Assembly: GCA_009841255.1 (NCBI GenBank)
Contig: VXMD01000059.1
Span: 1-40,287, forward strand
DNA from: Candidatus Poribacteria bacterium
GTDB taxonomy: Bacteria > Poribacteria > WGA-4E > WGA-3G
Length of the DNA: 40,287 nt
Reading direction: 5' to 3'
The notes beneath the pieces are model-generated. The model had not been told where the DNA came from. It saw only the letters and a program-made list of their open reading frames with translations, and searched no databases. Below, piece by piece: positions 7,437 through 40,012 of this stretch (position 1 is the first letter of the stretch; every line of letters begins with the position of its first letter). The translations under genes were made by a program, and so were the position numbers.

Positions 7437-7483
7437 CCAAACTGGACGATTAACAAGTTGTCCGCAAAACAAGGAGTTATCTC

Positions 7484-9407: not shown

Positions 9408-9458
9408 CCCCTCAGATGAAGATAATCAATTGGTCTGTGCAAAATATGGAGGTATCTT

Positions 9459-11237: not shown

Positions 11238-11400
11238 CCTAAGTTGCTACCCAATCGGTCTTGGATGTTTAAACACAGATTTTTCGAGTAAAACTTCTCT
11301 TTACACCCCGTAGGGGTGTTATGTCTATAGAAAATAGAGCATTCAAGAAGCCGCACCCCGTAGGGGTGCTATATAAATAAAAAAGTGGCAACTTGGGTTA
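11235..11400. mobile_element. 166-bp MITE-like element, copy B
   Basis: The terminal repeats TAACCTAAGTTGCTAC (11235-11250) and GTGGCAACTTGGGTTA (11385-11400) enclose two CACCCCGTAGGGGTG palindromes, one followed by ATGTCTATAG. The element fills the gap between mod and res and would sit in their shared transcript. Copy A at 3083 has the same length. Confidence 0.8.
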
Positions 11401-11424
11401 AAATAATAAGTCAGAGGAGAGAAA

Positions 11425-14124: not shown

Positions 14125-14191
14125 GTGTATCGCTATCTTACGTTGTTGGGAGTAGAGCAATCTGAAGTTCAGCTTGAAAAGAAGATTGAAA

Positions 14192-15211: not shown

Positions 15212-15254
15212 ATTTCTGTTCAGATAGAATGTGAGTACTACCTAAAGGGGGTTT

Positions 15255-17156: not shown

Positions 17157-17173
17157 ATGGAAGGGCTTGATAG

Positions 17174-17947: not shown

Positions 17948-18774
17948 AGTTACCAAAAGATTTTCCAAATTTAGATGCCTTACTTGAAAAAATGGGGATT
18001 CCATTCCAACCGTTTATAGCCCCGGAAATAAAGAAATTAATAACGACACAAGGCATCACGGTAGAATCTGATGATATTAAAGTTGCTCTGAACGGAACTC
18101 TTGAATACCAAGGACGAAAGGTTGTTCTCTATATTCGGGATGTCATGGGGAGTTTACCGAAGTATCACGTTGTAGATTGTCAAACCCTTAGAGGCATGCG
18201 AAACGCGGGGAGATATAAACGTTATGTGGTGACGAGGCGGACAGATGGAGAGTTCCTCCTCAATTTTGCCGACAATCTTTTGCGCGACGATCCGGAAACA
18301 CACAGATTGGATATTTGTAAATATTGTTTGTGGCAAGAATTGAATCTAAGGTATATCTCTCCTGATGCTTTTCCATTAGCAGATTGGTTTAATGCGATCG
18401 ATCCGGGTTATGCGCCCCCTCCGACAGATGCTCTTTATGGTCCTAAAATTACGCCAGTAACGCGTCCGACCTCAAATTATCCGCCGGATTGGAATTTGCG
18501 TTCGCTACAGTGTCGCAAGAATGCGGAGTGGAAATGTGAAGAATGTGGCATAGACCTCAGACTCGCCCCTAAATTTCTCCATGCCCACCATCTAAGAGGC
18601 ACTGGATATAATCAATCCACAGACCTGAAAGCACTCTGTATTGGTTGCCATGCGGAACAACCCAGACATCACATGAAACATTTGCCGGATTATCTGGAAT
18701 TCATGGAGTTATACGGGGATATCTGGAAACAATTACAGCGACTGGTAGAGCCGCTGTTCCGGAAATCGTCGTAG
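17944..18774 (+). CDS. zorE: HNH endonuclease, ZorE-type effector
   Basis: A 276-residue protein, translationally coupled to zorB by a TTGA overlap (TTG start). Residues 1-175 are a conserved unknown domain with an extra CxxC (C125, C128). Residues 185-260 form a zinc-type HNH nuclease: WKCEEC (C198, C201), FLHAHHLRG, LKALCIGCHAEQ (C232, C235, H236) and PDYLEFMELYG. Type II Zorya systems carry an HNH protein, ZorE, directly after ZorAB, and this position and domain fit that type. It would nick or cut DNA once activated by the motor. No membrane segment is visible, unlike the related HNH protein upstream of zorA. Confidence 0.78.
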   Translation: MKLPKDFPNLDALLEKMGIPFQPFIAPEIKKLITTQGITVESDDIKVALNGTLEYQGRKVVLYIRDVMGSLPKYHVVDCQTLRGMRNAGRYKRYVVTRRTDGEFLLNFADNLLRDDPETHRLDICKYCLWQELNLRYISPDAFPLADWFNAIDPGYAPPPTDALYGPKITPVTRPTSNYPPDWNLRSLQCRKNAEWKCEECGIDLRLAPKFLHAHHLRGTGYNQSTDLKALCIGCHAEQPRHHMKHLPDYLEFMELYGDIWKQLQRLVEPLFRKSS

Positions 18775-18808
18775 ATTCTTCTTAGAAAAAAATGACGGGA
18801 AGATAGAA

Positions 18809-19348
18809 ATGAAACTACGCTTTTGCGAGTCCGAAATCAACCACTGGGCACACCGATACACGGAGCGCCAGGAAGAAGAAAACCGCATGAGAGAACAGTA
18901 CCTGATTGACCTCAGATGCGACGTTCTGGATCGCGGCTACCTTACGAAACAAGAATTGCATATAATCTCACGTTGGAAATCACCCAGACGTGCAGCCCTT
19001 ACCTTAGGGAATACCGACGACTTCATAAAAGAGATCACGGAAGAGGCGTTCACAGCCACAGACAACTGGACGAAATTGCTAACGTTGACTCAGGTACAAG
19101 GTATCGGGCAGCCGACAGCTTCTGCAATCCTACACCTCTACGATCAAGGAGATTACCCCATCCTTGATATACACGCACTTTGGTCTGTCGGACGACCGTG
19201 GAAAAAAAGAACCTCGTATCCGTTCTGGTTAGAATACATTCAGTTTTGCTGCGACATCGCGGACCGGAACAACGTTTCAATGCGAGAACTTGATAGAGCG
19301 TTGTGGAAGTATTCAGCCGACTACGGTAGACAGGGGTTTCCGCGGTAA
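18809..19348 (+). CDS. HhH DNA-glycosylase-like protein
   Basis: A 179-residue protein, 34 nt after the ZorE-type gene and probably in the same operon; GGGAAGA lies about 8 nt before the ATG. It holds a helix-hairpin-helix, LTLTQVQGIGQPTASAIL (about 91-108), followed by YPILDIHALWSVG, which resembles the P-x-D-x-H segment carrying the catalytic Asp of HhH-GPD base-excision glycosylases. The Lys found in bifunctional glycosylases at the GxGxxTA loop is absent. The Cys residues of an EndoIII Fe-S cluster are also absent. A DNA-binding or base-removing role is inferred. A broken second copy lies at 129-293, so the gene has been duplicated in this island. Confidence 0.65.
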   Translation: MKLRFCESEINHWAHRYTERQEEENRMREQYLIDLRCDVLDRGYLTKQELHIISRWKSPRRAALTLGNTDDFIKEITEEAFTATDNWTKLLTLTQVQGIGQPTASAILHLYDQGDYPILDIHALWSVGRPWKKRTSYPFWLEYIQFCCDIADRNNVSMRELDRALWKYSADYGRQGFPR

Positions 19349-19386
19349 CATAGTAATTTCTCTACGCTAAGCATAGGAGGCTTCTT

Positions 19387-21099
19387 ATGCAACAACGTAT
19401 TATAGATCCACCTGAAGACCAATGGAACAGACTGCCAACGCCGCTTACACCGGGCGAACGCGAAGTCTTTGAACTGTTTAAAGAGGTGCTTCCTCTTGAA
19501 TGGGAAATGTACATACAGCCTCATCTCAATGGATTAAGGCCTGACCTTGTACTCCTCAATCCGTATGCCGGAATAGCTGTATTTGAAATTAAGGATTGGA
19601 GTTTAAATACCCTCCAATATTCAATTAGATATAATTGGAAAACCCAAAGTCCTATCAACCAGATAAAACTTTATGAAGAGGAAATATTCAATCTTTATTG
19701 TCCACGCCTTGATGACCGTTATGGAAAGGCGGTAATTAGTGCTGGACTCATTTTTACGCGGATACCTCAGGCAGAAGTTGATCGCCTGTTGAACCCTTTC
19801 CGAGATGGAAGTATGAGAAAATACCAAGAGCGATATCCGCTCTCAGGTTCAAAACATGTTGCACAAAGCAATGTTGATGCTCTGTTTCCAGAGTACAAAA
19901 AGTGGGGCAAGCAAAGGCAATCTCGTACTATGTCAGAGAATACTGCAAACGATCTTCGAGGATGGCTCAAAGAACCTGCTTTCAGTAAAGAACAACGGGA
20001 ACCACTTGGATTGAATGATCGCCAGTTCAGGATCGCGACGGAGCCTACACAGGGGCGTTATCGTAAAGTTAGAGGGCCTGCTGGATCAGGTAAAAGTCAA
20101 GCTCTCGCTGCTCGCGCAGCTGTGCTTGCTAGCGAAGGCAAGCGAGTGCTTGTGTGCACGTTCAACATTACACTAATGAATTATCTTCGAGATATAGTGG
20201 CTCGACATGCGCGTGAACTCGCGACGCAATCAGGTGAAAGTCCAAGATTTATCAGACAACAGGTTGAATTTCGTCACTTTCATGGTTGGTGTAAGCGAAT
20301 CTGTACGCTCTCGGGACGTGAAAATGATTATTTTCAACTTTGGAGACGATTCTCTGAAGAAGCGGTGCTGGACGAGCAGATGGCAAAACTGGTATTGCAA
20401 ATCTATGCTGATCCATCAGTTCTTGATGTCCTACCGATCTACGACGCTATTCTGGTTGACGAAGGACAGGACTACAACAAAGACTGGTGGCAAACACTGC
20501 GAGCAGCGGTTGAACCAGATGGAGAAATGCTTCTCGTTGCAGACAAGACACAGAATATATATGGAACTGACGTGACTTGGCTAGATGGCTCATTAAGGGG
20601 AACAGGAATTAGTTCTAGCTGGTATAATTTAGAAACAAGTTACCGACTGCCTCCCGAAATCGTCCCTATTTTGGAGGATTTTGCTAACCATTTCCTTGTG
20701 CCTTCCGGTGTAGAAGTTGACATTCCTAAACAAGTAGAGCTAGGTTTCAATCCACCGATTGAGTTGCGGTGGGTGCAAGTATCTTCTGTAAGTTCAATAG
20801 CAGAAATCTGTTTTGTGGAAGCCCGTGAGCAAATGAAATGCTTGGGGAATGATACTGCAATTCCTGATATTATTTTTCTTACACCGAGGAATGATACAGG
20901 CATTGTGTTCGTCGAGAAGTGTGAAGAAAAGAGGGTCCGTGTTCTCTCCACATTCGGTCAAAAGGATCAGGAACTTGACCCATTGAGGCAAAGGGATAGA
21001 AAATTACACAAGTATGAGAATTCCCGTCGTAAAAAATTGGCATTTTTTCTGGGGGATGCTAGAATTAAAGCGACAACGCTACATAGTTTTAAAGGTTAG
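19387..21099 (+). CDS. NERD-domain UvrD-like helicase, ended early by an amber codon
   Basis: A 570-residue open frame. Residues 1-130 are a NERD nuclease-related domain: GLRPDLVLLN and AVFEIKDW (D and E-x-K). The rest is a superfamily 1 helicase with Walker A GPAGSGKS (230-237), VDEGQD (357-362), VADKTQNIYG and YRLPPEIV. It stops at TAG (21097-21099) in the middle of motif V: the frame gives TLHSFKG, then TAG, then EGRHLIL, where TGG (Trp) is usual. Motif VI therefore lies beyond the stop. AGGAGG 7 nt before the ATG is a strong ribosome binding site. Unless the codon is read through, the protein lacks motifs needed for ATP-driven unwinding. Confidence 0.85.
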   Translation: MQQRIIDPPEDQWNRLPTPLTPGEREVFELFKEVLPLEWEMYIQPHLNGLRPDLVLLNPYAGIAVFEIKDWSLNTLQYSIRYNWKTQSPINQIKLYEEEIFNLYCPRLDDRYGKAVISAGLIFTRIPQAEVDRLLNPFRDGSMRKYQERYPLSGSKHVAQSNVDALFPEYKKWGKQRQSRTMSENTANDLRGWLKEPAFSKEQREPLGLNDRQFRIATEPTQGRYRKVRGPAGSGKSQALAARAAVLASEGKRVLVCTFNITLMNYLRDIVARHARELATQSGESPRFIRQQVEFRHFHGWCKRICTLSGRENDYFQLWRRFSEEAVLDEQMAKLVLQIYADPSVLDVLPIYDAILVDEGQDYNKDWWQTLRAAVEPDGEMLLVADKTQNIYGTDVTWLDGSLRGTGISSSWYNLETSYRLPPEIVPILEDFANHFLVPSGVEVDIPKQVELGFNPPIELRWVQVSSVSSIAEICFVEAREQMKCLGNDTAIPDIIFLTPRNDTGIVFVEKCEEKRVRVLSTFGQKDQELDPLRQRDRKLHKYENSRRKKLAFFLGDARIKATTLHSFKG

Positions 21100-27923: not shown

Positions 27924-30287
27924 ATGAGAAGCAAATTGTGCTCGATTTTAGCTACCCTTTTAGCAGTACTTGCTTTTGCACTAAACGCCTACGCCCAAGA
28001 TTACACGCACTTGGGTTTACCCGAAGGCGCAAAAGCGCGTCTCGGTAAAGGCTTAATAACGGATGTTCAATATTCCCCAGATGGTTCACGTGTGGCGGTT
28101 GCGAGTTCTATCGGGATCTGGCTCTATGATGTCCAAACAGGTGAAGAACTTGACCGGCTCACGGGGTATACGGGTTGGGTGAATAGTGTGTCGTTTAGTC
28201 CCGATGGTCAGATGTTAGCGATCGGGAGTAATGACATAGCTGTTCGTTTATGGTCCATTGAGACAGGCACTTTGCGCATGCTCACGGAGCATACGGGTTG
28301 GGTGAATAGTGTGTCGTTTAGTCCGGATGGTGAGACACTAGCAAGTGGGAGTGGGGACAGTACGGTCGGTTTATGGGACGTTCATACAGGCACACGCCTC
28401 CGTACGCTCAGGGGACATACAGGTTGGGTGAACAGTGTGTCGTTTAGTCCGGATGGTGAGAAGCTGGCAAGTGGAAGTAAGGATGAGACGATCCGTTTAT
28501 GGTCTGTAGGAAAAGGTGTTTCCCTGTGCACGCTTGAGGAGCAGACGGATTGGGTCGAGAACGTATCGTTTAGTCCGGATGGTGAGACGTTGGCAAGTGG
28601 AAGTTCAGATGGGACGGTTCGTTTATATTCTGTAGGAACAGGTGCTCCGCTGCGCACGTTTGAGGGACATACGGGTTGGGTCAGGGGTGTATCGTTTAGT
28701 CCGGATGGAGAGACACTGGCAAGTGGAAGTTCAGACGGTACGGTGCGTTTATGGTCTGTCGGGACAGGCACGACCCTTCGCATGCTCACGGGGCATACAA
28801 GTTGGATTTATAGTATATCGTTTAGTCCGGATGGAGAGACACTGGCAATTGCGGGTGATAACGATGCCATCCGTTTATGGTCTGTTAAGACCGGCGCACT
28901 CGTCCGCACGTTTGAGGGACATACGAGTTGGGTCAGGGGTGTATCTTTTAGTCCGGATGGTGAGACGCTGGCAAGTGCGAGTAATGACGGGACAGCGCGT
29001 TTATGGTCTGTTGAGACAGGTGCTTCCCTGCACACGCTCGAGGGGCATACGAGTTGGGTCGCAAGCGTGTCGTTTAGTCCTGATGGTCGAACGTTGGCGA
29101 GTGGAAGTGGTGGGGACGGTACAGTTCGTTTATGGTCTGTTAGCACAGGCGCACTCGTCCGCACGTTCAAAGGAAATAGGCATTCGGGCGACAACGTATC
29201 GTTTAGTCCGGATGGTGAGACGCTCGCACGTGGGGATGATGACAGTACCATTCGTCTATGGTCTGTTAGCACGGGCGATCTCCTTCACACGCTCGAGGGG
29301 CATAGGGATTGGGTCGAAGGTGTATCGTTTAGTCCGGATGGAGAGACGCTGGCAAGTGGAAGTGGGGACGGTACCGTGCGTTTATGGTCTGTTAAGACCG
29401 GCGCACTCGTCCGCACGCTCGAGGGGCATGCGGATCGGGTATGGAGCGTATCGTTTAGTCCGGATGGTCAGATGCTGGCAAGTGCAGGGGATGACGAGAC
29501 AGTGCGTTTATGGACTGTTAGTACAGGTACCCCGCTTCGCACGTTCAGAGGGCATACGAATCGGATCGAAAGTGTGTCGTTTAGTCCGGATGGTAGGACG
29601 TTGGCAAGTGGGAGTGGGGACGGTACCGTGCTACTGTGGGAGCTTGTCCCCGTACCCTCGAAAACGGAAAAAATCGCAGCGGATGTCAATAGTGATGGGA
29701 TCGTTGATATAACGGATTTGGTGTTGATCGCCTCTAACTTCGGAAAAATGGGAGAAAATGTGGCGGATGTCAATGATAATGGTGTTGTTAATATCGTAGA
29801 TTTGGTGTTCGCTGCTGCGGCGATGGGCGATGCTGCGGCGACACCACTGGCGTGGCATCGTGCTCTGGAGTTCGCTCACACACGAGTCGAAGTGGAACAG
29901 TGGGTGCATCAAGCGCGGCAGCTAAACGTGACAGAGCCAATCCTTCAACGTGGGATTCTAATGCTGGAGCTGCTTCTCGCCGCATTGACCCCGATACAGA
30001 CAGCACTTTTGCCAAATTATCCGAATCCATTTAACCCAGAGACGTGGATCCCGTATCAGTTGGCGGAGCCTGCTGATGTTAATATTTCCATCTATTCCAC
30101 GGATGGGCGACTGGTTTGGACCTTGGCAGTAGGGCATCAACCTGTGGGTATCTATAAATCTCATAGTCGTGCGGCGTATTGGGATGGCAGAAATACGCAG
30201 GGTGAGTCAGTGGCGAGTGGCGTATATTTCTATACATTAACGGCAGATAATTTCACTACCACGCGGAAGATGTTGATTCTGCGGTAA
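27924..30287 (+). CDS. Secreted WD40-repeat protein with dockerin-like and FlgD-like C-terminus
   Basis: A 787-residue exported protein; the signal peptide ends AYAQ (about 25). Thirteen WD40 units (about 50-575) carry the core SVSFSPDGETLASGS...TVRLWSV, each about 42 residues, enough for two stacked seven-bladed propellers. The units are nearly identical in DNA (GTTTAGTCCGGATGG recurs), indicating recent internal amplification. Residues of about 590-640 hold two dockerin-type calcium loops, DVNSDGIVDITDLV and DVNDNGVVNIVDLV. The C-terminus has PNYPNPFNPETWIPYQL and SGVYFYTL, a FlgD-like/sorting-type module found in secreted proteins. It is probably a surface-bound scaffold; the partner is unknown. 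No strong ribosome binding site is visible. Confidence 0.9.
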   Translation: MRSKLCSILATLLAVLAFALNAYAQDYTHLGLPEGAKARLGKGLITDVQYSPDGSRVAVASSIGIWLYDVQTGEELDRLTGYTGWVNSVSFSPDGQMLAIGSNDIAVRLWSIETGTLRMLTEHTGWVNSVSFSPDGETLASGSGDSTVGLWDVHTGTRLRTLRGHTGWVNSVSFSPDGEKLASGSKDETIRLWSVGKGVSLCTLEEQTDWVENVSFSPDGETLASGSSDGTVRLYSVGTGAPLRTFEGHTGWVRGVSFSPDGETLASGSSDGTVRLWSVGTGTTLRMLTGHTSWIYSISFSPDGETLAIAGDNDAIRLWSVKTGALVRTFEGHTSWVRGVSFSPDGETLASASNDGTARLWSVETGASLHTLEGHTSWVASVSFSPDGRTLASGSGGDGTVRLWSVSTGALVRTFKGNRHSGDNVSFSPDGETLARGDDDSTIRLWSVSTGDLLHTLEGHRDWVEGVSFSPDGETLASGSGDGTVRLWSVKTGALVRTLEGHADRVWSVSFSPDGQMLASAGDDETVRLWTVSTGTPLRTFRGHTNRIESVSFSPDGRTLASGSGDGTVLLWELVPVPSKTEKIAADVNSDGIVDITDLVLIASNFGKMGENVADVNDNGVVNIVDLVFAAAAMGDAAATPLAWHRALEFAHTRVEVEQWVHQARQLNVTEPILQRGILMLELLLAALTPIQTALLPNYPNPFNPETWIPYQLAEPADVNISIYSTDGRLVWTLAVGHQPVGIYKSHSRAAYWDGRNTQGESVASGVYFYTLTADNFTTTRKMLILR

Positions 30288-30317
30288 TCCTTTCTATGGT
30301 TTGTAGTAGCGCAATAG

Positions 30318-30340
30318 CGCAAGTCGCGTGTGGACTTGCG
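30318..30340. terminator. Hairpin after the WD40 gene
   Basis: CGCAAGTC and GACTTGCG pair around a 7-nt loop 30 nt after the stop codon. No T-run follows, so it may be an intergenic palindrome rather than a true terminator. Confidence 0.35.
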
Positions 30341-30391
30341 GGACAATGCGCCTTGCGTAAGTCCTGATTGATGAAAAGGAGAAAAATTTTG

Positions 30392-30889
30392 ATGACACAA
30401 TTTTACACTGTCTCTCTCGCATTGTGCTACCTATTGGTGTTTCTCGGCTGTGCCACAGACCCCGATATAGACGGCAAAACAGTCTTCGTTTCGTCTGCGG
30501 ATGTGTTGCCCGATGACACACCACTCTGGGGCGAAGTAATATTCGCGAACCCAACACGCAACGCCTGGGGAACAGATGATTATGTCGTCAACACACCGCC
30601 ATCAATAACGAACGATGTGCTAACGCTAAATGTCTCCTACAGCGGAGGGTGCAAGGCACACGAGTTTACGCTTATCACATCGGGCGCATTTCTGGAGTCG
30701 AACCCCGTCCAACTCCAAGCGGTTCTCGCCCATGACGCCAACCGGGATAGTTGTGAAGCATGGGTAACCGAGACTTACCACTTCAATGTGTCGGCTCTCA
30801 AAACACGGTATCAGAAGGCTTACCGCACAGAAACAGGGACGATTGTTTTGAATATCAAAGGCATTCCCGCCCTGGTGTATACGTTTTGA
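30392..30889 (+). CDS. Small exported lipoprotein
   Basis: A 165-residue protein. The ATG at 30392 follows AAGGAG by 10 nt and gives a signal peptide ending in the lipobox VFLGC; starts at 30368 and 30371 only add basic residues before it. The mature part is rich in beta strands with GGCKAHEFTLITSGAF and RDSCEAWVTETYHFNVSAL, whose two Cys could form a disulfide. I recognise no named family. No partner is obvious; the cupin gene downstream is separated by two palindromic repeats. Confidence 0.75.
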   Translation: MTQFYTVSLALCYLLVFLGCATDPDIDGKTVFVSSADVLPDDTPLWGEVIFANPTRNAWGTDDYVVNTPPSITNDVLTLNVSYSGGCKAHEFTLITSGAFLESNPVQLQAVLAHDANRDSCEAWVTETYHFNVSALKTRYQKAYRTETGTIVLNIKGIPALVYTF

Positions 30890-30948
30890 AAGTTTTTCAG
30901 GTTGAAATATAAAATTTATGGTGAATTATCAAAATATGCAAACCTCGT

Positions 30949-30973
30949 GTAGGGGCAGGTCTTGTGCCTGCCT
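30949..30973. repeat. GTAGGGGCAGG palindromic repeat, copy 1
   Basis: GTAGGGGCAGG-TCTTGTG-CCTGCC forms a hairpin. The same 24-bp unit recurs at 30994, 21 bp later. Confidence 0.65.
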
Positions 30974-30993
30974 ACAGATACACTAATGACATT

Positions 30994-31018
30994 GTAGGGG
31001 CAGGTCTTGTGCCTGCCC
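30994..31018. repeat. GTAGGGGCAGG palindromic repeat, copy 2
   Basis: Identical over 24 bases to the copy at 30949. It lies just before the ribosome binding site of the cupin gene, where it could influence mRNA folding. Confidence 0.65.
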
Positions 31019-31043
31019 ACTACCATAATCTTGGAGGAAAAAG

Positions 31044-31463
31044 ATGAAACATATCTATCACAAAGAGGACGCCGAAGTCGTCCGAATCGAAGGCGAGGCA
31101 CCACGCACACTATATACACTCGTTGAGCCGAATACCGTTGGCACTGAACACTTCTCTATGGGGTTAGAAGAAATTGATCCACATAGTGAAATTCCGCTCC
31201 ACTCGCACAGTGAATCCGAAGAAATTATTTTTGTCTATGGCGGACAGGGCAAAGCATTTGTCGGTGATGAAGTTGCTGATCTGAAACCCGGTACGGTCAT
31301 CTATCTCCCACCCAACGTCGAGCACCGCTTTGTTAACACAGGCGATGAACCGCTCTGGATTACATGGACACTCTCACCCCCCGGTTTTGAGAAACAAATC
31401 CGTAAGATCGCGGACGGTTCCGCTGGCATGGAAGTCTTTCGCGAATCTGAGGATAGTTCCTAA
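31044..31463 (+). CDS. Single-domain cupin protein
   Basis: A 139-residue protein with the two cupin motifs: HSEIPLHSHSESEEIIFVYGGQG (motif 1, with HxH and a later Glu) and LPPNVEHRFVNTG (motif 2, with His). These residues bind one metal ion in the beta-barrel. The C-terminus is WTLSPPGFEKQI. GGAGG lies 7 nt before the ATG. The family covers dioxygenases, isomerases and sensors, and the substrate cannot be told. It has no operon partner on either side. Confidence 0.85.
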   Translation: MKHIYHKEDAEVVRIEGEAPRTLYTLVEPNTVGTEHFSMGLEEIDPHSEIPLHSHSESEEIIFVYGGQGKAFVGDEVADLKPGTVIYLPPNVEHRFVNTGDEPLWITWTLSPPGFEKQIRKIADGSAGMEVFRESEDSS

Positions 31464-31493
31464 ATTATGTAGGATTGATAAGATCCTTCAAGC

Positions 31494-31673
31494 ATGTTTG
31501 AGAAAGTTTATATCGGTCTAACGTGTATTTCACACGTGGTCGTTGCAGGATTTTTGGTATTTTTATGCTTCCGAACGCGATCAAGGGGTCTGATACTCAT
31601 CACCGCGCGCTTCGTCACTACCTCTTACAGAAAACCCACCTTTCACTATCCTTTCTCTGGGACATGTTTCTAA
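31494..31673 (+). CDS. Small membrane protein, diverged paralogue
   Basis: A 59-codon frame with a hydrophobic stretch and FLVFLCFRTRSRGLILIT. This matches GLLGFLCFRTRSKGLILIS of the small membrane protein at 31833 at both DNA and protein level. The C-terminal third differs and loses hydrophobicity, suggesting decay or frameshift after duplication. No strong ribosome binding site is seen. Confidence 0.4.
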   Translation: MFEKVYIGLTCISHVVVAGFLVFLCFRTRSRGLILITARFVTTSYRKPTFHYPFSGTCF

Positions 31674-31832
31674 TAGGCAAAGCGGGGTATTTCATACATA
31701 CTTGCTGAGGACATGCAGTCGTTTGATATCTTGGTCACCCGTTTAAACAGGAATTAAGATAGGGTTCATGATATGGGTTTCTTAAGGGAAATCGGACTGC
31801 AATTAGACTTTACGTTTGAAGGAGGTTTGACA

Positions 31833-32048
31833 ATGCTGAGTGGTATTCTTTACGGGCTGAATATTATTGTATGGTTGGCTTTTGCGGGACTGCTGGGGTT
31901 CTTATGTTTCCGAACAAGGTCAAAGGGGTTGATACTTATTAGTGCGATACTCCTTACCAGTGGAATCTTTGATTGGGGTTTTGAACAAGTGAGTCAGTTA
32001 TATGTGGATCAGTCGATAGCAAGTGAAATGAGCGGTGAGGGGACGTAG
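31833..32048 (+). CDS. Small two-helix membrane protein
   Basis: A 71-residue protein. The ATG at 31833 follows GGAGG by 8 nt; a longer frame from 31773 lacks such a site. Two hydrophobic helices (about 6-26 and 34-48) are separated by the basic loop CFRTRSKG, followed by an acidic tail. The family is not recognised. A partial duplicate lies upstream at 31494, and another small membrane gene starts 3 nt after its stop codon. Confidence 0.6.
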   Translation: MLSGILYGLNIIVWLAFAGLLGFLCFRTRSKGLILISAILLTSGIFDWGFEQVSQLYVDQSIASEMSGEGT

Positions 32049-32051
32049 GAT

Positions 32052-32207
32052 ATGAGAGTCGGGGAGTTCCTACTGACGCTTTCACTTATACAACATCTGC
32101 TATACAATTGTTTATGTTTGCTTGGGGGTTTTCTTATTTTTAGAGAATGGCAACAGGGAAAATTTCACCAACCCCAGCCTGAACCCGTAGAAGCACCCAA
32201 GGCATGA
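32052..32207 (+). CDS. 51-residue membrane protein
   Basis: A short frame directly behind the previous small gene (3-nt gap). One hydrophobic helix (LSLIQHLLYNCLCLLGGFLIF) is followed by a polar, Pro/Glu-rich tail. Tight coupling with the preceding gene supports it as real, but no family is recognised. Confidence 0.5.
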   Translation: MRVGEFLLTLSLIQHLLYNCLCLLGGFLIFREWQQGKFHQPQPEPVEAPKA

Positions 32208-32406
32208 AGGAATAAAATAAGCCTTTTCGATGGAAAAAGTGCCTTTTTTGCAAGTGGGACATCAAGGACACAATGATTCCGATTTTTCTGACGGATTCTG
32301 TTGACATGCTACCATGGAATATGTTACTATAATGATTAACATGTATTGCGAAATCTGCAAATTAATATATCTCAAAACCTGGCGTTGAGGTCCGGGAGGT
32401 GACAAC

Positions 32407-33738
32407 ATGAGCATTACCCAATTCACAATGGAAGAAGTCCGCTGTTTTGGCGAACGCCAGACGTTTGAAATTCGTCCTCTGACTTTTTTTGTCGGAGAAA
32501 ACAGCACCGGTAAAACGACAGCACTTGCCTGTTTCCATGTACTGGCAGATTATTTACGCGGTAGGGGAGTTGTTTTCAATGGATTGTCCTCGACAGATTC
32601 ACATCCTTATTCAATGGGAACCTTTAGAGATATTGTTAGAAGTAGTCGGAAAAAGGAGAAGGCTTTTAAACTTGGATTTGTGTCAAAACATGCTGATGAA
32701 GATATTCAATGGACAATTGAGTTTGTTGAGAAAACGGAAGGGATAGAACCAGTTGTTAGTTCGATAACGATAGAATTTGCTGATGGTACAATTGTCATTA
32801 AAACTGAAGATAAAATTGATGTAGGGGCACGTTTAGATTCCTATGATGAAAAGCAGAATCAATACCGGATGGTTTGTGAGTTTGATATCTTAAACAGCAT
32901 TCCCCCTTTCCTTATCCTGTCTGCTTTTAATAGACAAGATAGGGAAAAAGATGCCTTCTCAAAATATTTGGAGAAAAAAAGTGAAACGTTTGAGGAAAAC
33001 AAGCATCAACTTTGGAGTATTTGGGACACCATATCTGTGTTTAGTACGTCGCCAGTTCGCTCACGTCCTAAACGAACCTATGATCCGACGAGGGAATTTA
33101 ATGATCCTGAGGGTAGTGATATTCCTATGTATTTAACGCGGATTGAAGCAACCCAAAAAGAGAATTGGGAGATGTTAAAGGAGCAATTGATCGACTTTGG
33201 TAAGAGTTCAGGATTATTTCAGAACATAAAAATAAAGAAACTTGGACGATCCTTGGGTGCCCCATTCCAGTTGCAATTCAAAGTGAGAGGACCTACTTCT
33301 AATATTATTGATGTTGGTTACGGTGTCAGTCAAATTTTGCCAATTTTGGTGCAGATTTTAAGTTCTGATGTTTCTCGGAACACTCGAGGTATATCTAGGC
33401 GGTCGACTTTTTCCTTCTTGCAACAACCTGAAGTTCATTTGCATCCAAAGGCACAAGCGGAATTCTCTTCTTTATTAATTAAATTGGCAAGTAGGGGTCA
33501 CCAGTCGTTCATCGTTGAAACCCACAGCGACTATATGATTGACCGCGCGCGCGTTGACATTATGAGGGGTAACATCCGTCCCGAAGATGTTTCCCTGATT
33601 TATTTTGAACCAAAGGGACGCGTTGTTAAGGTACACAATATTAGTTTTGATAAAATGGCAAATTTGATCGGTGCTCCGACGAATTATAGGGAATTTTTTC
33701 TGAAAGAGTCCAAGCGACTCATGGGGTTTAAGGATTAA
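32407..33738 (+). CDS. AAA/OLD-like ATPase of a two-gene defence-type pair
   Basis: A 443-residue SMC/ABC-like AAA ATPase. Walker A FVGENSTGKTT is at 28-38, a signature-like DVGYGVSQILPIL lies near 300, Walker B FLQQPEVHLHP near 340 and a switch region IVETHSDYMIDR near 370. Gln replaces the first acidic residue that often precedes PE in this family. The layout fits overcoming-lysogenization-defect-like and AAA_15/AAA_21 ATPases, which often sit in defence pairs. GGGAGG lies 9 nt before the ATG. The gene is followed after 3 nt by a PIN-like nuclease gene, so the ATPase probably controls that nuclease. Confidence 0.85.
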   Translation: MSITQFTMEEVRCFGERQTFEIRPLTFFVGENSTGKTTALACFHVLADYLRGRGVVFNGLSSTDSHPYSMGTFRDIVRSSRKKEKAFKLGFVSKHADEDIQWTIEFVEKTEGIEPVVSSITIEFADGTIVIKTEDKIDVGARLDSYDEKQNQYRMVCEFDILNSIPPFLILSAFNRQDREKDAFSKYLEKKSETFEENKHQLWSIWDTISVFSTSPVRSRPKRTYDPTREFNDPEGSDIPMYLTRIEATQKENWEMLKEQLIDFGKSSGLFQNIKIKKLGRSLGAPFQLQFKVRGPTSNIIDVGYGVSQILPILVQILSSDVSRNTRGISRRSTFSFLQQPEVHLHPKAQAEFSSLLIKLASRGHQSFIVETHSDYMIDRARVDIMRGNIRPEDVSLIYFEPKGRVVKVHNISFDKMANLIGAPTNYREFFLKESKRLMGFKD

Positions 33739-33741
33739 GTA

Positions 33742-34173
33742 ATGTGTATTATTGTCGATACGAACACGTTTCATAAATTCAAGGAACCGGACAATGAAGA
33801 TATGGAACCTGTGTGGACTTGGTTAGAGAAAAGAGATGGCAAAATCGCTTATGCTAGCACAGAGAAATTGGAAGATGAATGGGATAACGGAGGAATGCAG
33901 AACTTGAGAAACCAATTAAGACAAGCAGGTAAACTCAAAGTGGTATCCTTCGAAGATGTACAAGAAAAAGCAGATGAACTGAAAGGCGTGATATCATCAG
34001 ATGATGAGCATATTATCGCGTTGGCTCTGATAGCCGATGTAAAAGTCTTGGTATCGTACCGAGAGGGCGACGGAGATTTGTTCGCAGATTTTAAGAATCG
34101 TGAGTTAGTCGGAGGCAAAGTGTATACGAGAAAGCAGCATGTACATTTACTGACTAAGGACACCTGCCCTTAA
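33742..34173 (+). CDS. PIN-like nuclease paired with the AAA ATPase
   Basis: A 143-residue protein. The N-terminal strand CIIVDTN carries D6; E41/E44 lie in STEKLEDEW; D87 and D88 in ISSDDEHIIALALIADVKVLVS; and D110/D112 in REGDGDLFADF. This is the acidic-residue order of a PIN-domain ribonuclease. The gene starts 3 nt after the ATPase stop, with AAGGA inside the upstream gene's end, so the two are translated together. An RNA-cutting effector held in check by the ATPase is the inferred role. No small antitoxin gene is visible. Confidence 0.7.
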   Translation: MCIIVDTNTFHKFKEPDNEDMEPVWTWLEKRDGKIAYASTEKLEDEWDNGGMQNLRNQLRQAGKLKVVSFEDVQEKADELKGVISSDDEHIIALALIADVKVLVSYREGDGDLFADFKNRELVGGKVYTRKQHVHLLTKDTCP

Positions 34174-34183
34174 AATATGGGCG

Positions 34184-34207
34184 GTGCGAGGCACGGTGAC
34201 CTCGCAC
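34184..34207. terminator. Bidirectional terminator hairpin between convergent genes
   Basis: GTGCGAGG and CCTCGCAC form a perfect 8-bp stem with an 8-nt loop. It lies 10 nt after the PIN-like gene and 17 nt from the end of the opposing TPP-enzyme gene. Confidence 0.5.
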
Positions 34208-34224
34208 TACCGTATAATTCATCT

Positions 34225-35898
34225 CTATGAAGGCATCCACGTCCGTGGCGCAATCCCTTCCACATGCGTTTTCACATCAACAACCGCAGGTCTCCCCGAA
34301 TCGAGTGCCTGATCCAGGGCACCCGCGAGTTCACTCGGTTTATTGACTGTAATCCCAAGACATCCCATTGATTCTGCCATCTTCGCAAAATCCGCATCTG
34401 GGAACAGCCAAAGTTCATCGGAACCCGAAGTCCGTCCACCGTAGACCGACTCAACGCCCCCCTGCTCTTGGTTCAATGAATGGTTGTTGTTCACAACGAT
34501 GACAGCATTAATCCCGGACTTCATCGCCGTATCGAGTTCAGTCATGTGATACCAGATACCACCGTCGCCTGTGAAACAGATCACCGGTCTATCCGGTTGT
34601 GCGCACTTCGCACCCATCGCCGCAGGGAGTCCCCATCCCAACGAGCCTGAACAACGGATGAAACTCTGATCGGGATGTTTAAAATCGATCATCGTGCCCG
34701 TCCAGATGCCTGAATGCCCCGTGTCGGAGACGAGGATCGCGTCTGACGGGAGATAGTCTGTCAGTTCACGACAAAGTCGTTCGGGTAGCATCGGCAACCG
34801 TTCCGAGTTCACCTTCTCGCTAACATCGTCTTTCCAGTTTTTCACCAATTCTTGGACGCGGCTAACCCATTCGGTCCGCGGCTCCGCAGCGTCTGACGCT
34901 TCAAGCATCCGGCGTAGTGTGTTCCGTACATCTCCCTGCATCCCTAACTGGATAGGATAATTCCGTCCGAGTTCATCTGGGTTAATGTCGAGTTGTATAA
35001 CCGGTGTGCCTTGTGGCGGGATCTTGTATCCGTTGGTTACCTGTCCGCCGGTATGGCTGCCAATGAAGAAGACGAGGTCCGCTTCGCAGACGGCTTGGTT
35101 GGTGCATGCCCGCGAGTATGAACCGGGGGTCCCGACTGCCAGTGGATGGTCACTGGGGAACATCGCCTTTGCGTTCAGAGAGGTCGCCACTGGAATCGAG
35201 AGTTTCTCTGCCAATGTGACGAGTTCTGCACGTGCGTCTGACGCCGTTACGCCACCCCCTGCCACAATGATGGGACGTTTCGCGTTAGAGAGGATTCTAA
35301 GGGCTTCCGTCACCTTTTCTGCTTCTGCTTCCGGTCGAAACGGCGGTAATTGGGTGAACGCCTCTTCAATGATAATCTCAAGTTCACCCTCCCGATCAAT
35401 AACCGATGTTCCAGCGATGCCTTCAAAATCGAGATGTGCAGGTCCGGGGGTCCCTGTCGTCGCCGCACGGAAGGCTTGACGTAAATAGAAGGGCAGTTGC
35501 TCCGGTGTCGCGACATAAGCACTGTACTTCGTGACAGCGGAAAATGGGTTGACGTGGTCTACCTCTTGGTAAGCGTGCCGTTGTTGATTGATTTGGTTTT
35601 CCTTGCCGGTAATCGCAATTACTGGTGCGCAAGCGAGGTAGGCATCTTGTAGTCCCGCTGCGAGGTTCACCGCTCCGACCGATTGTGCCATACAGAGACT
35701 GGGAGCACGGTTCACACGGGCGTAGGCGTCAGCCATATATGCTGCTGCTTTCTCACCGTGCGTCTGCACTCGCTTGATCCCGAGACTTTCCATCTCCATT
35801 AAAGTCCGCGGGCCGATATACGGCATAAAAAAAACGTGGGTAATCCCATAGCCGTGGACGGTATCAGCAATAAATTTAGCACCTGTCATTTTCGGCAT
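34225..35898 (-). CDS. Thiamine-pyrophosphate enzyme, acetolactate synthase-like
   Basis: A 557-residue protein with the three-domain layout of acetolactate synthase and related TPP enzymes. The N-terminal PYR domain has THGEKAAAYMADAYAR with the catalytic Glu (E49). The central domain has RPIIVAGGGVTASDA. The C-terminal PP domain has GSLGWGLPAAMGAK and a TPP-binding motif from GDGGIWYHMTELDTA to VVNNN. No FAD-specific hallmark can be judged by eye. The substrate could be pyruvate or another 2-keto acid. GGGAG lies upstream of the ATG. There is no small regulatory subunit nearby, which argues against a biosynthetic IlvB role. Confidence 0.88.
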   Translation of the reverse strand: MPKMTGAKFIADTVHGYGITHVFFMPYIGPRTLMEMESLGIKRVQTHGEKAAAYMADAYARVNRAPSLCMAQSVGAVNLAAGLQDAYLACAPVIAITGKENQINQQRHAYQEVDHVNPFSAVTKYSAYVATPEQLPFYLRQAFRAATTGTPGPAHLDFEGIAGTSVIDREGELEIIIEEAFTQLPPFRPEAEAEKVTEALRILSNAKRPIIVAGGGVTASDARAELVTLAEKLSIPVATSLNAKAMFPSDHPLAVGTPGSYSRACTNQAVCEADLVFFIGSHTGGQVTNGYKIPPQGTPVIQLDINPDELGRNYPIQLGMQGDVRNTLRRMLEASDAAEPRTEWVSRVQELVKNWKDDVSEKVNSERLPMLPERLCRELTDYLPSDAILVSDTGHSGIWTGTMIDFKHPDQSFIRCSGSLGWGLPAAMGAKCAQPDRPVICFTGDGGIWYHMTELDTAMKSGINAVIVVNNNHSLNQEQGGVESVYGGRTSGSDELWLFPDADFAKMAESMGCLGITVNKPSELAGALDQALDSGRPAVVDVKTHVEGIAPRTWMPS

Positions 35899-35950
35899 AG
35901 TTCTTTCTTCTCCCTTTTCACATAGCTCGCAAGCAAAAACTTGCTATAAT

Positions 35951-36010
35951 CACAGTCCATCACAGTAAGTCATAGTCCATCACAGTAAATCACGGTAAAT
36001 CACAGTGTGG
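35951..36010. repeat. Six 10-bp tandem repeats (CACAGTAAAT type)
   Basis: Six decamers follow one another with exact 10-bp period: CACAGTCCAT, CACAGTAAGT, CATAGTCCAT, CACAGTAAAT, CACGGTAAAT and CACAGTGTGG. They lie in the divergent space between the TPP-enzyme gene and the LamG gene. The one-turn spacing would put every unit on the same DNA face. The rest of this 317-bp gap shows no gene. Confidence 0.7.
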
Positions 36011-36215
36011 CTTTCAACACGATGTGGGATCCATTTTACCAGTTTTCGGTGTAACGTGCAAGCGTGAACTTAGCATCCGAATAAATTTGGTAAGAAATCG
36101 TCAGAGGTGCTATAATTGTCTCACCGATTTTAAATGCAAGTTTTGGAAATCTTGAACCACACCAGAAATTTTCCATAGGTGTGGAAATAAACCCACTTTC
36201 GCAAGGGGAAGTACC

Positions 36216-37058
36216 ATGAAAAGGCTAAACTATCTCCTCTTATTCACGTTAACGATCGCTATATTTTCCTACAATGTGTATGCAGCAACCGTAGTGACAG
36301 ATGGACTCGTGAGTTATTGGACGTTTGATCGGCAAGACATTGCCGGTGGCACAGTCAAAGATGTCTGGGGTGAGAATGACGGCACTATAGTCGGTGCGCC
36401 GAAAATCGTCGATGGACAGGTCGGAGAAGCCCTCGAATTTGACGGGAGCGACGATTATGTCAACTTGACAAACCTCGGCAATTTTGGGGAGAATGTCGGG
36501 ACATCTACCTTTGAAGCCTGGGTTAAAACAGATTTCAAAAAGGATTGGACGACACTTTTCAAAGTGCTCGATCAGGGATGCAATATGGCGTGGGCGATTG
36601 ATGTCAATCGGAGCGCAAAAGCGGGTTTTCCGCTTGCTGAAGATATTGTCCACTATTACGTCCGCCAGAAATCGCCAGCCGGATGCAACGCCATCGCTGT
36701 TGAGATCGAGTTCGCCTTGTCGGATGGCAAATGGCACCACATCGTTTTCGCAATTGTAGACGCCGGTAAGTCCGAGGTCGGCATCTATATGGACGGTGAA
36801 CCACAGGAGGTTATCGAAGGGGCTGTAAAAGATCTTGACACGTTTATCCCGTTTGTGGAGCCTGTCTATATCGGTGCCGCAAACAATCGCGGGAACGTTG
36901 AGCGGTTTTTCCCCGGCGTCATTGATGAAGTCCGCATATACGATCGACCCCTCACCGCCGCCGAAGTGACCCGGAATTTTGAATCGAAAATCGGATTGTC
37001 CGTTCAACCCGCTGAGAAACTCCCTATCGTCTGGGCGACCCTCAAGACAGTAAGGTAA
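36216..37058 (+). CDS. Exported LamG (concanavalin A-like) protein
   Basis: A 280-residue protein. The signal peptide ends VYAA (about 24). One laminin-G/concanavalin-like domain follows: GLVSYWTFD, ALEFDGSDDYVNL, FEAWVKTD, KWHHIVFAIVD, IYMDGEPQEV, VYIGAANNRG and GVIDEVRIYDRPLTAAEV. This is the usual LamG core that binds carbohydrate or protein. The gene is a stand-alone LamG secreted protein, a common type in Poribacteria-like genomes. It is only 11 nt before the PhyH gene and probably co-transcribed with it. Confidence 0.88.
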   Translation: MKRLNYLLLFTLTIAIFSYNVYAATVVTDGLVSYWTFDRQDIAGGTVKDVWGENDGTIVGAPKIVDGQVGEALEFDGSDDYVNLTNLGNFGENVGTSTFEAWVKTDFKKDWTTLFKVLDQGCNMAWAIDVNRSAKAGFPLAEDIVHYYVRQKSPAGCNAIAVEIEFALSDGKWHHIVFAIVDAGKSEVGIYMDGEPQEVIEGAVKDLDTFIPFVEPVYIGAANNRGNVERFFPGVIDEVRIYDRPLTAAEVTRNFESKIGLSVQPAEKLPIVWATLKTVR

Positions 37059-37069
37059 CACCACAAAAA

Positions 37070-37861
37070 ATGGATATACTCACGCCTGAAGAAAAATGGT
37101 TCTTTGATCACCACGGATTCATTATCCTCCGCAAAGTCGTGCCGCCCGAAGATATCGAGCGAATGATTCAGCTCGGCAACCAATGGCACGACACCCCTTT
37201 GGATGAACTGCCACCACCGCTCACCTCTACCTCCCGAACGGGTAATCATTCTCCGACGATTGCACATTGGATTAATCATATCCAATACGGCGATCCCGTC
37301 TTCCAACGGCTTGTGCTGAACCGAGAGATTATGCGGGTGATTATTGCCCTCACGCGGGGGACTCCGTGCCTCGTTGATTGCGCCTTGACCAAGAATTACA
37401 AAACCTCCAATGATATCCACTTCCATGCCGCCGGTCAAGACTACAGTGTTGACGCGTCAGGACCGCGTGCGGGTTTCCTCAACGCTGGCACCTCCTTGGT
37501 AGATGTGCCACCAGGGACGGGGTTCGTCTGTCTACCCGGAAGCCATAAGCGCAACTTTGAACCCCCCGATAACCTTTCCATCTACGATGGGCCGCCCACG
37601 ATTATCAACGTCCCTGTCAATGCAGGCGATTGTGTCGTCTTTACAGAGGCACTCTATCACGGCGGAAGACGCTGGACAGAATCCTATCCACGCTTCACTA
37701 TTTTTAACCGCTATATTGATAACGCATCACACAATTCCCTTCCCATTGAAAGCCATAAACACCTGATTCCCGATGAGGTCTATGAATTAGAACAGCCTGC
37801 GATCCAAGGACAGCGAAAACGGGTCGTAGGACGCATCTTGAGTGAATTGGACGCACATTGA
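37070..37861 (+). CDS. Phytanoyl-CoA dioxygenase (PhyH) family protein
   Basis: A 263-residue protein of the Fe(II)/2-oxoglutarate PhyH family. Visible features are FFDHHGFIILRKVVPPEDIERM at the N-terminus, a central NDIHFHAAGQDY that supplies the first metal His region, VPPGTGFVCLPGSHK, and AGDCVVFTEALYHGGRRW with the second His and a following Arg (SYPRFTIFNRY) for 2-oxoglutarate. The exact metal triad should be confirmed by alignment, since HxD is not obvious. The substrate is unknown. It is followed after 9 nt by the TIM-barrel gene, so the two may act on related substrates. Confidence 0.82.
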   Translation: MDILTPEEKWFFDHHGFIILRKVVPPEDIERMIQLGNQWHDTPLDELPPPLTSTSRTGNHSPTIAHWINHIQYGDPVFQRLVLNREIMRVIIALTRGTPCLVDCALTKNYKTSNDIHFHAAGQDYSVDASGPRAGFLNAGTSLVDVPPGTGFVCLPGSHKRNFEPPDNLSIYDGPPTIINVPVNAGDCVVFTEALYHGGRRWTESYPRFTIFNRYIDNASHNSLPIESHKHLIPDEVYELEQPAIQGQRKRVVGRILSELDAH

Positions 37862-37870
37862 GGTGTTACG

Positions 37871-40012
37871 ATGCAAAAGCGTGAGACCATCGAACATAAG
37901 TCGTATCCACTTGGTGAACCAGGACAGATAGCGACGTATCAGCATAAAAGTGAAGGATCGCTACCGAACGCCGTTGTGGAGACGTTGACCGTAGCAATCG
38001 GTTCGATTGAAGAAAAGGCGGATGTGCCGCATCAGTGGATGGGTCTTCGTGCGACAAAAGTATCCGATGAAAAATTCGCAGTCTGGTTGCTGAGTGAAGG
38101 CATCCCGTCCGAAGATCTGGAAGTAGCCCGCGCAACCACATCTCGATACATCCTACAGATCGGAGACGATATTCCCTTGGAATTCCGAGATAGGTTCACT
38201 GGGGAACCTGTCCTACCCAGTCTCGGTGCATGGCAATATCTGTTCCCAAAACCTGTGGACAAAACGGAGCAAAGTAATCTCTTCCCACAAACGGTAAAAT
38301 ATCTCGGACACACCTATCGGCTTACGCATATATCCAATTCAGGTGAATCTGCCACACCGCCGGAAGACACCCGACTCCTGTCTCTCCGTTCCAATGTCCT
38401 TGTTGGACCTCCCAGCAATACGAGACAAAAAGACGAAACCCGTCGCTATGACATGTCTGATTATGAACTCATCCCACTTGTCGAAGCCGATTACGACGAG
38501 ATGATTGCGGCGGGGATTAACTGTGTTCGCGTTGATACCGAGCAGGTGGAATGGGTTAAAAATCGAGACGTTTTTTACTGGGGAATCGACGCCGCAGCAC
38601 TCGGTTATCCTGAATGTTTATACCGAAGTAACTACCTCGGTCCTGCTATTTTCATGGACGAACCCGCTGTCTGCACGCGGGACCATGTGCTTAGACCCAA
38701 GTTGGAAGCAGACCCTAACTTTCGGAAAGCAGTAACCCCGCAACTCGCGTTTGAGGCGTTTCAAGACTACTTCCACACCGCTAAATACGATGGTGCACCC
38801 ACGCGGTTATGCAAAGGTTTAGAAGCACATCCGGACGTAGATTTGGAGGACATGGCATTTCTTCAGGAGAATCTGTATACGTGGGACACGATCATCAGTT
38901 CGGCAGCGTATCAACTCTCAGAAGGGGACACGAGAGTTCCCGTTGCGATAGTCTTTGAGCCGCCCGGCAGAGTTGGGACGATGAGAACGCTGCCCGAAAT
39001 GAATATGACGTATGGTTGCCAGATTCCGATAGACACTCCGAAGAATCTTGCGAGTATCCTCTACGGATTCCTACGGGGTGCCGCCCGACAAACCGATAAA
39101 GGGTGGGGCATGAGTATCTACGGACAGGTACACCGTGCCGACGCCTTCTGGCTCCAAACACACGCTTACGATTTGGGAGCGCGGCATTTTCATTACTGGG
39201 ACAACTATCAACTCGCCTGTGTGCCTTACGGTGAAATCCTCGCACTTTCACGAAATTTAAGTGCCCATGTCGAAAGCCATCCCGATAGGAATCTTGCCGA
39301 ACTCCGCAACGCCGCGGAAATGGTTATCCTCCTACCGCCCGGCTACAATCTCGGACATGTTGAGATGGGCAGGGGCAATCTCTGGGGTGTAGGAGAACTC
39401 AATTTAGAGCGACGTAATAGAGAAGGCGTCAAATACCGCACCGTGATGCACAATTTTTTCACCGAAGTTGAAAGAGCGATGCGACTCGGTGTTGCTTTCG
39501 ACCTTCTCTGGGATTTGGCAGGGCTTAGGTTATCCGACTATCGGGAAGTCGTCCGCATTCGGGAGGACGGTAGCGTTGAAGTTCATGAAGGCAATGAGAT
39601 GGTTTTACACGACGGTGCGCGGATACCAACCCGCCCAACCGGCACGCCTCCGACATTGACTGTTGATACTTCTATACTGCAAACCGCTGCCGCATTTGAA
39701 GTGCGTGCTTGTGCCACTGTAACCAAAGGATCTGCCTCCGTTTACTACACCCAGGGTGCAGACGAAAACGGTATCTACAATAACGAGATGGTACTCTGGG
39801 AGCTGTTCGGTCCAGCGGAGGAAGATTACCGGTTTCTGAACAGAGAGTGCTTCGAAATTCGCATTGATCAAACAAAATCGGTAGCCGAGGTAGAGATTAG
39901 CTTTACTCTTAATCGCCCTGGGAATTACCGGCTCCGAGCCGCAACTGTTGACATAGCGGGCCGCACAGCCGTCGCATGGGAAACTATTACTGCATCCAGT
40001 CAGGAAGCCTAA
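37871..40012 (+). CDS. Large TIM-barrel glycoside-hydrolase-like protein
   Basis: A 713-residue protein without an obvious signal peptide. The centre (about 190-480) looks like a glycosidase TIM barrel. It has YDEMIAAGINCVRVD, FMDEPAVCTRDH (possible acid Glu), VAIVFEPPGRVGTM, GMSIYGQVHRADAFWLQ and GARHFHYWDNYQLACV. The C-terminal 110 residues form a beta-sandwich (VYYTQGADENGIYNNEMVLW, RPGNYRLRAATVDIAGR). I recognise no exact family, and GH42-like is only a suggestion. GAGGTG lies 7 nt before the ATG, 9 nt behind the PhyH gene. It is the last gene of the LamG-PhyH-barrel cluster. Confidence 0.65.
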   Translation: MQKRETIEHKSYPLGEPGQIATYQHKSEGSLPNAVVETLTVAIGSIEEKADVPHQWMGLRATKVSDEKFAVWLLSEGIPSEDLEVARATTSRYILQIGDDIPLEFRDRFTGEPVLPSLGAWQYLFPKPVDKTEQSNLFPQTVKYLGHTYRLTHISNSGESATPPEDTRLLSLRSNVLVGPPSNTRQKDETRRYDMSDYELIPLVEADYDEMIAAGINCVRVDTEQVEWVKNRDVFYWGIDAAALGYPECLYRSNYLGPAIFMDEPAVCTRDHVLRPKLEADPNFRKAVTPQLAFEAFQDYFHTAKYDGAPTRLCKGLEAHPDVDLEDMAFLQENLYTWDTIISSAAYQLSEGDTRVPVAIVFEPPGRVGTMRTLPEMNMTYGCQIPIDTPKNLASILYGFLRGAARQTDKGWGMSIYGQVHRADAFWLQTHAYDLGARHFHYWDNYQLACVPYGEILALSRNLSAHVESHPDRNLAELRNAAEMVILLPPGYNLGHVEMGRGNLWGVGELNLERRNREGVKYRTVMHNFFTEVERAMRLGVAFDLLWDLAGLRLSDYREVVRIREDGSVEVHEGNEMVLHDGARIPTRPTGTPPTLTVDTSILQTAAAFEVRACATVTKGSASVYYTQGADENGIYNNEMVLWELFGPAEEDYRFLNRECFEIRIDQTKSVAEVEISFTLNRPGNYRLRAATVDIAGRTAVAWETITASSQEA

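Follow-up and report, generated by a model that had tools for sequence, protein, structure and literature searches.

We identified a two-gene unit in which a gene for an ABC-type ATPase directly precedes a gene for a small PIN-like protein, in a window of 40,287 nucleotides (the whole stretch of DNA analysed). By computation, this unit is characterized by strict pairing of its genes, conserved ATPase motifs and PIN acidic residues, presence-absence variation among genomes, reassortment of the two halves, and an ATPase C-terminus that is inherited together with the PIN gene. The interpretation that we favor, and to which we give an about even chance, is that the two genes form a conflict module, most probably directed against phages, in which the ATPase detects infection and either restrains or triggers a growth-stopping PIN ribonuclease. 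The locus comprises the following features:

32395..32402, + strand: Shine-Dalgarno-like sequence GGAGGTGA ahead of the ATPase gene, where the conserved two-gene block also begins
32407..33738, + strand: gene for the ABC-type (AAA_15/AAA_21) ATPase, 443 aa, the proposed sensor and restraint
32494..32520, + strand: GENSTGKTT, ATPase residues 30-38, which we take to be Walker A; G30, K36 and T37 invariant in 38/38 orthologs
32767..33006, + strand: hypervariable ATPase centre by column entropy, residues 121-200, a candidate sensing surface
33430..33525, + strand: E342 (presumably Walker B) to H373 (presumably the H-loop), QQPEVHLHP ... ETHSD, both invariant in 38/38 orthologs
33577..33735, + strand: ATPase C-terminal segment, residues 391-443, a candidate for docking that varies in step with PIN
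33742..34173, + strand: gene for the PIN-like protein, 143 aa, the proposed nuclease effector
33757..33759, + strand: D6 of the PIN-like protein, putative catalytic acid (35/36 orthologs)
33877..33879, + strand: E46 of the PIN-like protein, putative catalytic acid (36/36 orthologs)
34003..34005, + strand: D88 of the PIN-like protein, putative catalytic acid (36/36 orthologs)
34069..34071, + strand: D110 of the PIN-like protein, putative catalytic acid (36/36 orthologs)

The gap between the two genes is 3 nt (GTA); the initial annotation had both this gap and the gene coordinates exactly right. The ribosome-binding site of the ATPase gene is strong, and the AAGGA of the PIN-like gene lies within the 3′ end of the ATPase gene, which suggests that translation of the small gene is coupled to that of the ATPase. 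A 91-aa membrane-type ORF upstream (31773-32048) was considered as a third component and rejected, given that its relatives occur at sites lacking the pair and are in some cases multicopy.

The small protein is present in 50 of 84 Poribacteria genomes (39 of 55 among the good-quality genomes), and the ATPase gene is located directly upstream, on the same strand, in all 50, which rules out chance adjacency. The spacing is 5-11 nt including the stop codon in 48 of the 50 genomes, and -1 and 63 nt in the other two, which hold damaged copies. The initial annotation had called for a check of whether the pair is conserved and would have given up its proposal if the genes were rarely adjacent elsewhere; the 50/50 adjacency confirms a genuine conserved two-gene ATPase-PIN unit. 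Three genomes contain an ATPase match without a PIN gene, one at a contig end (G067), one degraded (G044), and one with a distant ATPase (G009; L101:6861-8195, 33% by tblastn) that has no detectable PIN neighbour. In G051 and G054, just the first 39 and 52 ATPase residues are found, at contig ends, so that 50 genomes is a lower bound. A scan of genome contigs for short-peptide patterns, which reaches close relatives only, recovered 3 loci, all from Poribacteria, and sequence searches detected no copy of the PIN protein on plasmids, phages or viral contigs.

Comparison of the window ATPase with Pfam yields matches to AAA_15 (8.3 × 10−21) and AAA_21 (4.6 × 10−17) that cover nearly its whole length, with AAA_15 reaching residue 378, and no match to a TOPRIM domain. 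The best PADLOC models are PDC-M55A (5 × 10−40), NsnB of Menshen (1.3 × 10−39), AriA (8.3 × 10−24) and HEC-03B (2.2 × 10−20); the OLD and GajA models score lower than the first three. Of the earlier description of this protein as an AAA_15- or OLD-like ATPase, the former part is thus upheld, whereas the latter yields to better-matching models. The only PDB matches of the ATPase profile are an OLD-family ATPase (2.1 × 10−9) and PtuA-type ATPases (0.0045-0.0095, over the Walker B region). All counted motif positions (Walker A, Walker B and H-loop) are invariant in the 38 aligned orthologs, and Walker A has a mean column entropy of 0.08, vs. 1.9-2.4 bits per 20-residue block across residues 121-200; block 321-340 is likewise variable (2.1 bits). 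Judging from the alignment, the variable centre is a candidate for the sensing surface. The predicted ATPase structure (pLDDT 36.5) is too low in confidence to interpret.

The small protein of the window has, by itself, no significant family match in Pfam, PADLOC and further family searches (the top Pfam match is DUF4411 at E = 0.19, with no PIN model above noise), so that the PIN call cannot be confirmed from this single sequence, and the assignment is made because the orthologs match PIN. Among the 36 orthologs, 16 match the PIN model PF01850 at E ≤ 1 (best 6.6 × 10−5), 15 match DUF4411, 5 match PDC-M11A of PADLOC, and a few have matches to further PIN models; one (L099) passes the PF01850 cut-off, at 23.9 vs. 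23.6 bits, over residues 44-109. E46, D88 and D110 are conserved in all 36 aligned orthologs and D6 in 35, the G033 protein (L085) having lost D6 to G; the four residues are plausibly equivalent to the PIN catalytic set. The initial annotation had read the small protein as PIN-like with all acidic residues in place and had named a different fold as the finding that would overturn it; the acidic residues and, through the orthologs, the PIN assignment stand, but the window sequence alone does not carry it. A structural model of the small protein, built from four sequences only, is poor (pLDDT 50.4, pTM 0.51), and a Foldseek search with it gave nothing significant, with a VapC toxin in the top row (E = 0.37). 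When the Foldseek candidates were re-aligned to this model, rows 1-17 were all PIN toxins or PIN-domain proteins (Z 3.6-5.0), with VapC- or FitB-type proteins in the top rows, vs. Z 3.3 for the first non-PIN row. Searching the PDB with a profile of the PIN alignment gave matches at E ≥ 0.01 to coiled-coil and otherwise unrelated chains, which we took as noise, and comparison of the alignment with six other PIN-matching proteins from the same genome was weak (E = 0.0094, probability 4%, 30 columns). Taken together, a PIN fold of the small protein is likely but not proven, and we count the lack of a significant match for the window protein, the poor model and the weak PIN-set profile comparisons against the anti-phage module. 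Two cysteines of the PIN protein, Cys2 (33745-33747) and Cys142 (34165-34167), are invariant in 36/36 orthologs, and its KDTCP tail is well conserved.

To compare genomic sites, we took 40 flanked regions and set aside L101, L102 and L103 as distant or degraded; the remaining 37 contain the pair (two with a damaged PIN gene) and, with the window, make up 38 loci. Classified by the first shared downstream neighbour, these loci fall into 11 contexts: 19 loci have a TPP enzyme, 5 have cluster 40, 3 have cluster 71, 2 each have cluster 115, 133 or 175, and the remaining 5 each have a gene of their own. The home site common to 19 of the 38 loci looks partly vertical. At this site, G073 lacks the pair and has the cupin and TPP-enzyme genes together, with ~770 bp between the aligned ends; the G049 site is also empty (the two genes ~855 bp apart), the G049 pair being located elsewhere. 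Comparison of the window with L065 by blastn shows a block that aligns over 32395-34173, beginning at the ribosome-binding site and ending with the final stop codon, with flanks that differ directly beyond it. The neighbours in the window are a WD40 protein, the cupin, the TPP enzyme, a laminin-G-like protein and a PhyH-like protein, with no defence genes among the named neighbours of the pair (8 scanned, 27924-40012). The placement of the pair outside the main defence island, made from the first inspection, proved correct, as the pair sits among metabolic and structural genes ~11 kb from the defence-type genes of the window. Those genes form a separate cluster at 4488-21099, with a UvrD-like helicase, two DNA methyltransferases, a ZorA-like gene and a NERD-UvrD gene. 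The non-defence neighbours, the partly vertical home site and the lack of mobile-element carriage all count against an anti-phage module.

Both genes are subject to purifying selection in close pairs, with dN/dS of 0.12-0.23 for the ATPase (11 chosen pairs) and 0.07-0.29 for PIN (10 pairs, the value for the eleventh, L082/L087, being saturated and dropped). Full-length ATPase matches within the genus are 63-74% identical to the window, compared to 91-97% for the adjacent TPP enzyme, and the two genes of a pair can diverge to very different extents: the window and L065 share 72% identity in the ATPase and 92% in PIN, and L083 and L086 share 85% and 57%, respectively. Tree tests on 36 loci reject a 7-row PIN clade when run on the ATPase data (p-AU = 4.6 × 10−13) and a 9-row ATPase clade when run on the PIN data (p-AU = 1.1 × 10−13); two two-row groups gave p-AU = 0.033 and 0.0039, and the fifth test, in which L083 and L086 were held together in the PIN tree, gave no rejection (p-AU = 0.168), all groups having been picked post hoc, with the trees already seen. 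By these computations, the ATPase and PIN halves have reassorted. Empty sites, the 11 contexts, fast change of the ATPase and reassortment fit a pair that evolves like a conflict locus. The phylum-wide spread (50 of 84 genomes, and 39 of the 55 of good quality), the purifying selection, the non-defence neighbours and the absence of mobile-element matches would also be accounted for by a lineage-specific role in housekeeping or RNA processing, like that of the archaeal OLD ATPase Cran1; Cran1 is reported to be essential and apparently not antiviral in the available text of PMC12796447, and shows that OLD-type ATPases can be domesticated. However, the pair is missing or broken in close relatives, its sites differ and its halves reassort, and we consider the housekeeping role distinctly improbable.

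The two halves do not vary independently along their whole length. Identity in ATPase residues 391-443 correlates with PIN identity given the remaining ATPase (partial rank correlation 0.50, with 0/2000 permutations as high), and the remaining ATPase still correlates with PIN given the tail (0.33). PIN-tracking within the ATPase changes by a jump near residue 391, and the correlation with the ATPase C-terminus is higher for PIN residues 1-70 (0.49) than for residues 71-143 (0.38). This co-inheritance could reflect either docking or physical linkage.

Of the 50 pairs, 44 have both genes open (one of these pairs being truncated at a contig end), 4 combine a broken PIN gene with an open ATPase gene (G028, G045, G056 and G082), and 2 have both genes broken (G029 and G035); a broken ATPase gene with an open PIN gene was found in none of the 50. 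If breaks followed gene length (1332 vs. 432 nt), the chance that 4/4 single breaks hit PIN would be ~0.004 by our own calculation, which is based on few breaks; MAG errors may have contributed some of them, although such errors should also follow length. This PIN-only breakage agrees with a harmful effector that cannot be left behind once its partner is lost. It also favors a toxin-antitoxin-like addiction or stress module with PIN as the toxin, the ATPase as the antitoxin and no dedicated phage trigger, as does the finding that VapC-type PIN toxins are the nearest folds. We regard such a module as unlikely, given that the partner is a 443-aa ATPase rather than a small DNA-binding antitoxin, that the pair is cleanly absent from sites in close relatives, which argues against strong addiction, and that the variable ATPase centre and the reassortment are more easily explained by sensing. 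In G028, the second half of the PIN gene has been swapped for an unrelated tail (L080:7388-7765), with the ATPase still open.

For the anti-phage module, we propose a mechanism based on the PARIS proteins AriA and AriB, where, in the available text of PMC12409363, an AriA hexamer sequesters AriB, a TOPRIM tRNase that cuts tRNA, and frees it on sensing phage proteins. The window ATPase would likewise act as an ABC-type oligomer, with its C-terminal segment binding the PIN protein and holding it inactive. A phage product or infection damage would be read mainly by the variable central region of the ATPase, upon which the PIN protein would be released or activated. The PIN protein would then cut RNA (tRNA or mRNA, a target suggested by its family only), and this cutting would stop growth of the infected cell.

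The initial annotation had read the pair as a candidate abortive-infection module, a reading that our results support in part, and had compared it to PARIS and Gabija. The PARIS half of this comparison holds in part, through the AriA match and the shared sensor-effector logic of a separate ABC-type ATPase and a small nuclease; however, AriB is a TOPRIM protein, whereas the window partner is PIN-like, with no TOPRIM or AriB match in Pfam and PADLOC and with PIN affinity among its orthologs. Gabija and classical OLD proteins contain a C-terminal TOPRIM domain within the ATPase protein, which the window ATPase lacks. The NsnB model of Menshen matches ATPase residues 3-438, but Menshen has a DUF262 gene (available text of PMC10952713), and no DUF262 match was found in the ATPase, the PIN protein or the 8 neighbours at 27924-40012. 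PDC-M55A is the best ATPase model, but the 315-position PDC-M55B model has no match to the 143-aa window PIN at E 10. In VapBC, the partner is a small DNA-binding antitoxin gene, whereas here the upstream gene encodes an ATPase in 50/50 genomes. Membership in Menshen, PARIS, Gabija, VapBC and PDC-M55 was rejected, as the window pair lacks a defining feature of each. Septu (PtuA and PtuB) and the retron effector PtuA also combine an ATPase with a small nuclease, and PtuA chains are among the PDB matches; this match is weak and confined to the Walker B region, and the effector of Septu is PtuB, an HNH nuclease, vs. a PIN-like partner in the window.

The nearest described two-gene analogue is HEC-03, a PADLOC candidate that the initial annotation did not name. 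HEC-03 resembles the window pair in broad ATPase type, in gene order and in the PIN-like start of its small partner (VIDTNV). HEC-03B scores 71.1 bits against the window ATPase (best stretch residues 250-427), compared to 444.6 bits against an Aeromonas ATPase, and HEC-03A matches neither the window PIN at E 10 nor any of the 36 orthologs at E 1; HEC-03A-type proteins themselves have no Pfam PIN match. We identified five HEC-03-like plasmid loci (Aeromonas, Acinetobacter, Azotobacter, Tistrella and Rhodococcus), in which the gene after the ATPase gene encodes a protein of the HEC-03A type with IDTN at its start, and the HEC-03A model of PADLOC matched both plasmid proteins scanned. The gene that comes next carries an RNA ligase annotation in 4 of the 5 loci, with a PF09414 match at 5.7 × 10−33 for the one in Tistrella; in Acinetobacter it is an HNH gene. 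The window pair has no such ligase. The order ATPase, PIN-like protein, RNA ligase in L108, L170, L171 and L172 suggests RNA cut-and-repair. These loci bear on the possibility that the window pair is a DNA-directed anti-invader nuclease, with the ATPase loading PIN onto foreign DNA in a Gabija-like manner. DNA-cleaving enzymes exist among PIN-like folds, and the PDB matches of the ATPase profile, solely OLD-family and PtuA-type, are compatible with this role; but the top structural rows for the small protein are VapC- or FitB-type, which act mostly on RNA, and the ligase hints at RNA damage in the related pair. To a DNA-directed nuclease we assign a low probability.

In the preferred anti-phage interpretation, the pair would, as far as sequence comparison reveals, unite an ATPase with a PIN-type nuclease in an immune-type pair and form a new branch of a known immunity style. 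Poribacteria are largely uncultured sponge symbionts, so that the pair also gives insight into immunity in organisms for which there is no phage assay. The natural recombinants are a ready test of modularity, in which the ATPase tail should set the accepted PIN and the centre what is sensed. ATPase-nuclease immune pairs known in detail have other effectors, such as TOPRIM in PARIS (available text of PMC12409363), and a PIN effector, if true, would add to the list of interchangeable warheads and tie immune ATPases to the VapC toxin enzyme family. PIN effectors in defence have precedent in DS-3 and DS-5, one-protein and two-protein PIN systems that are reported to protect against phage and to need their catalytic residues, and that are not paired with such an ATPase in the available text of PMC13092281. 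Within the open-access literature, subscription papers being mostly outside its scope, we found no description of the present pair or of HEC-03A as PIN.

The genome of the window contains a second ATPase/PIN-like pair (L111, contig C73; ATPase 5474-6778, 177-aa protein 6775-7308), which has the same gene order and a similar acidic pattern. It differs from the window pair in that local ATPase identity is 27.5% over 240 columns and the PIN families are not significantly alignable. The L111-type partner is found in 49 of 84 genomes, with the ATPase directly upstream in 30/30 loci examined, out of 53 matches listed. The window, L111 and HEC-03 families match each other weakly (E 0.015-0.052), so that their common PIN nature rests on the motif pattern and is partly inferred. 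It is possible, if rather doubtful, that ATPase-PIN pairs constitute an unrecognised sensor-effector immunity class with at least these three effector families, in which a cassette of PIN and docking tail is swapped between sensor bodies and the HEC-03-adjacent RNA ligase repairs PIN-cut RNA. Two L111-type proteins, in L164 and L168 (about 1483-2043), have VVNAS in place of the usual VIDTD/VIDAD, such that the first acidic residue is absent. The window genome also contains a third ATPase of the broad type (530 aa; L110:1295-3879, contig C58), followed by a 344-aa protein that has no PADLOC match and a Pfam match at chance level only.
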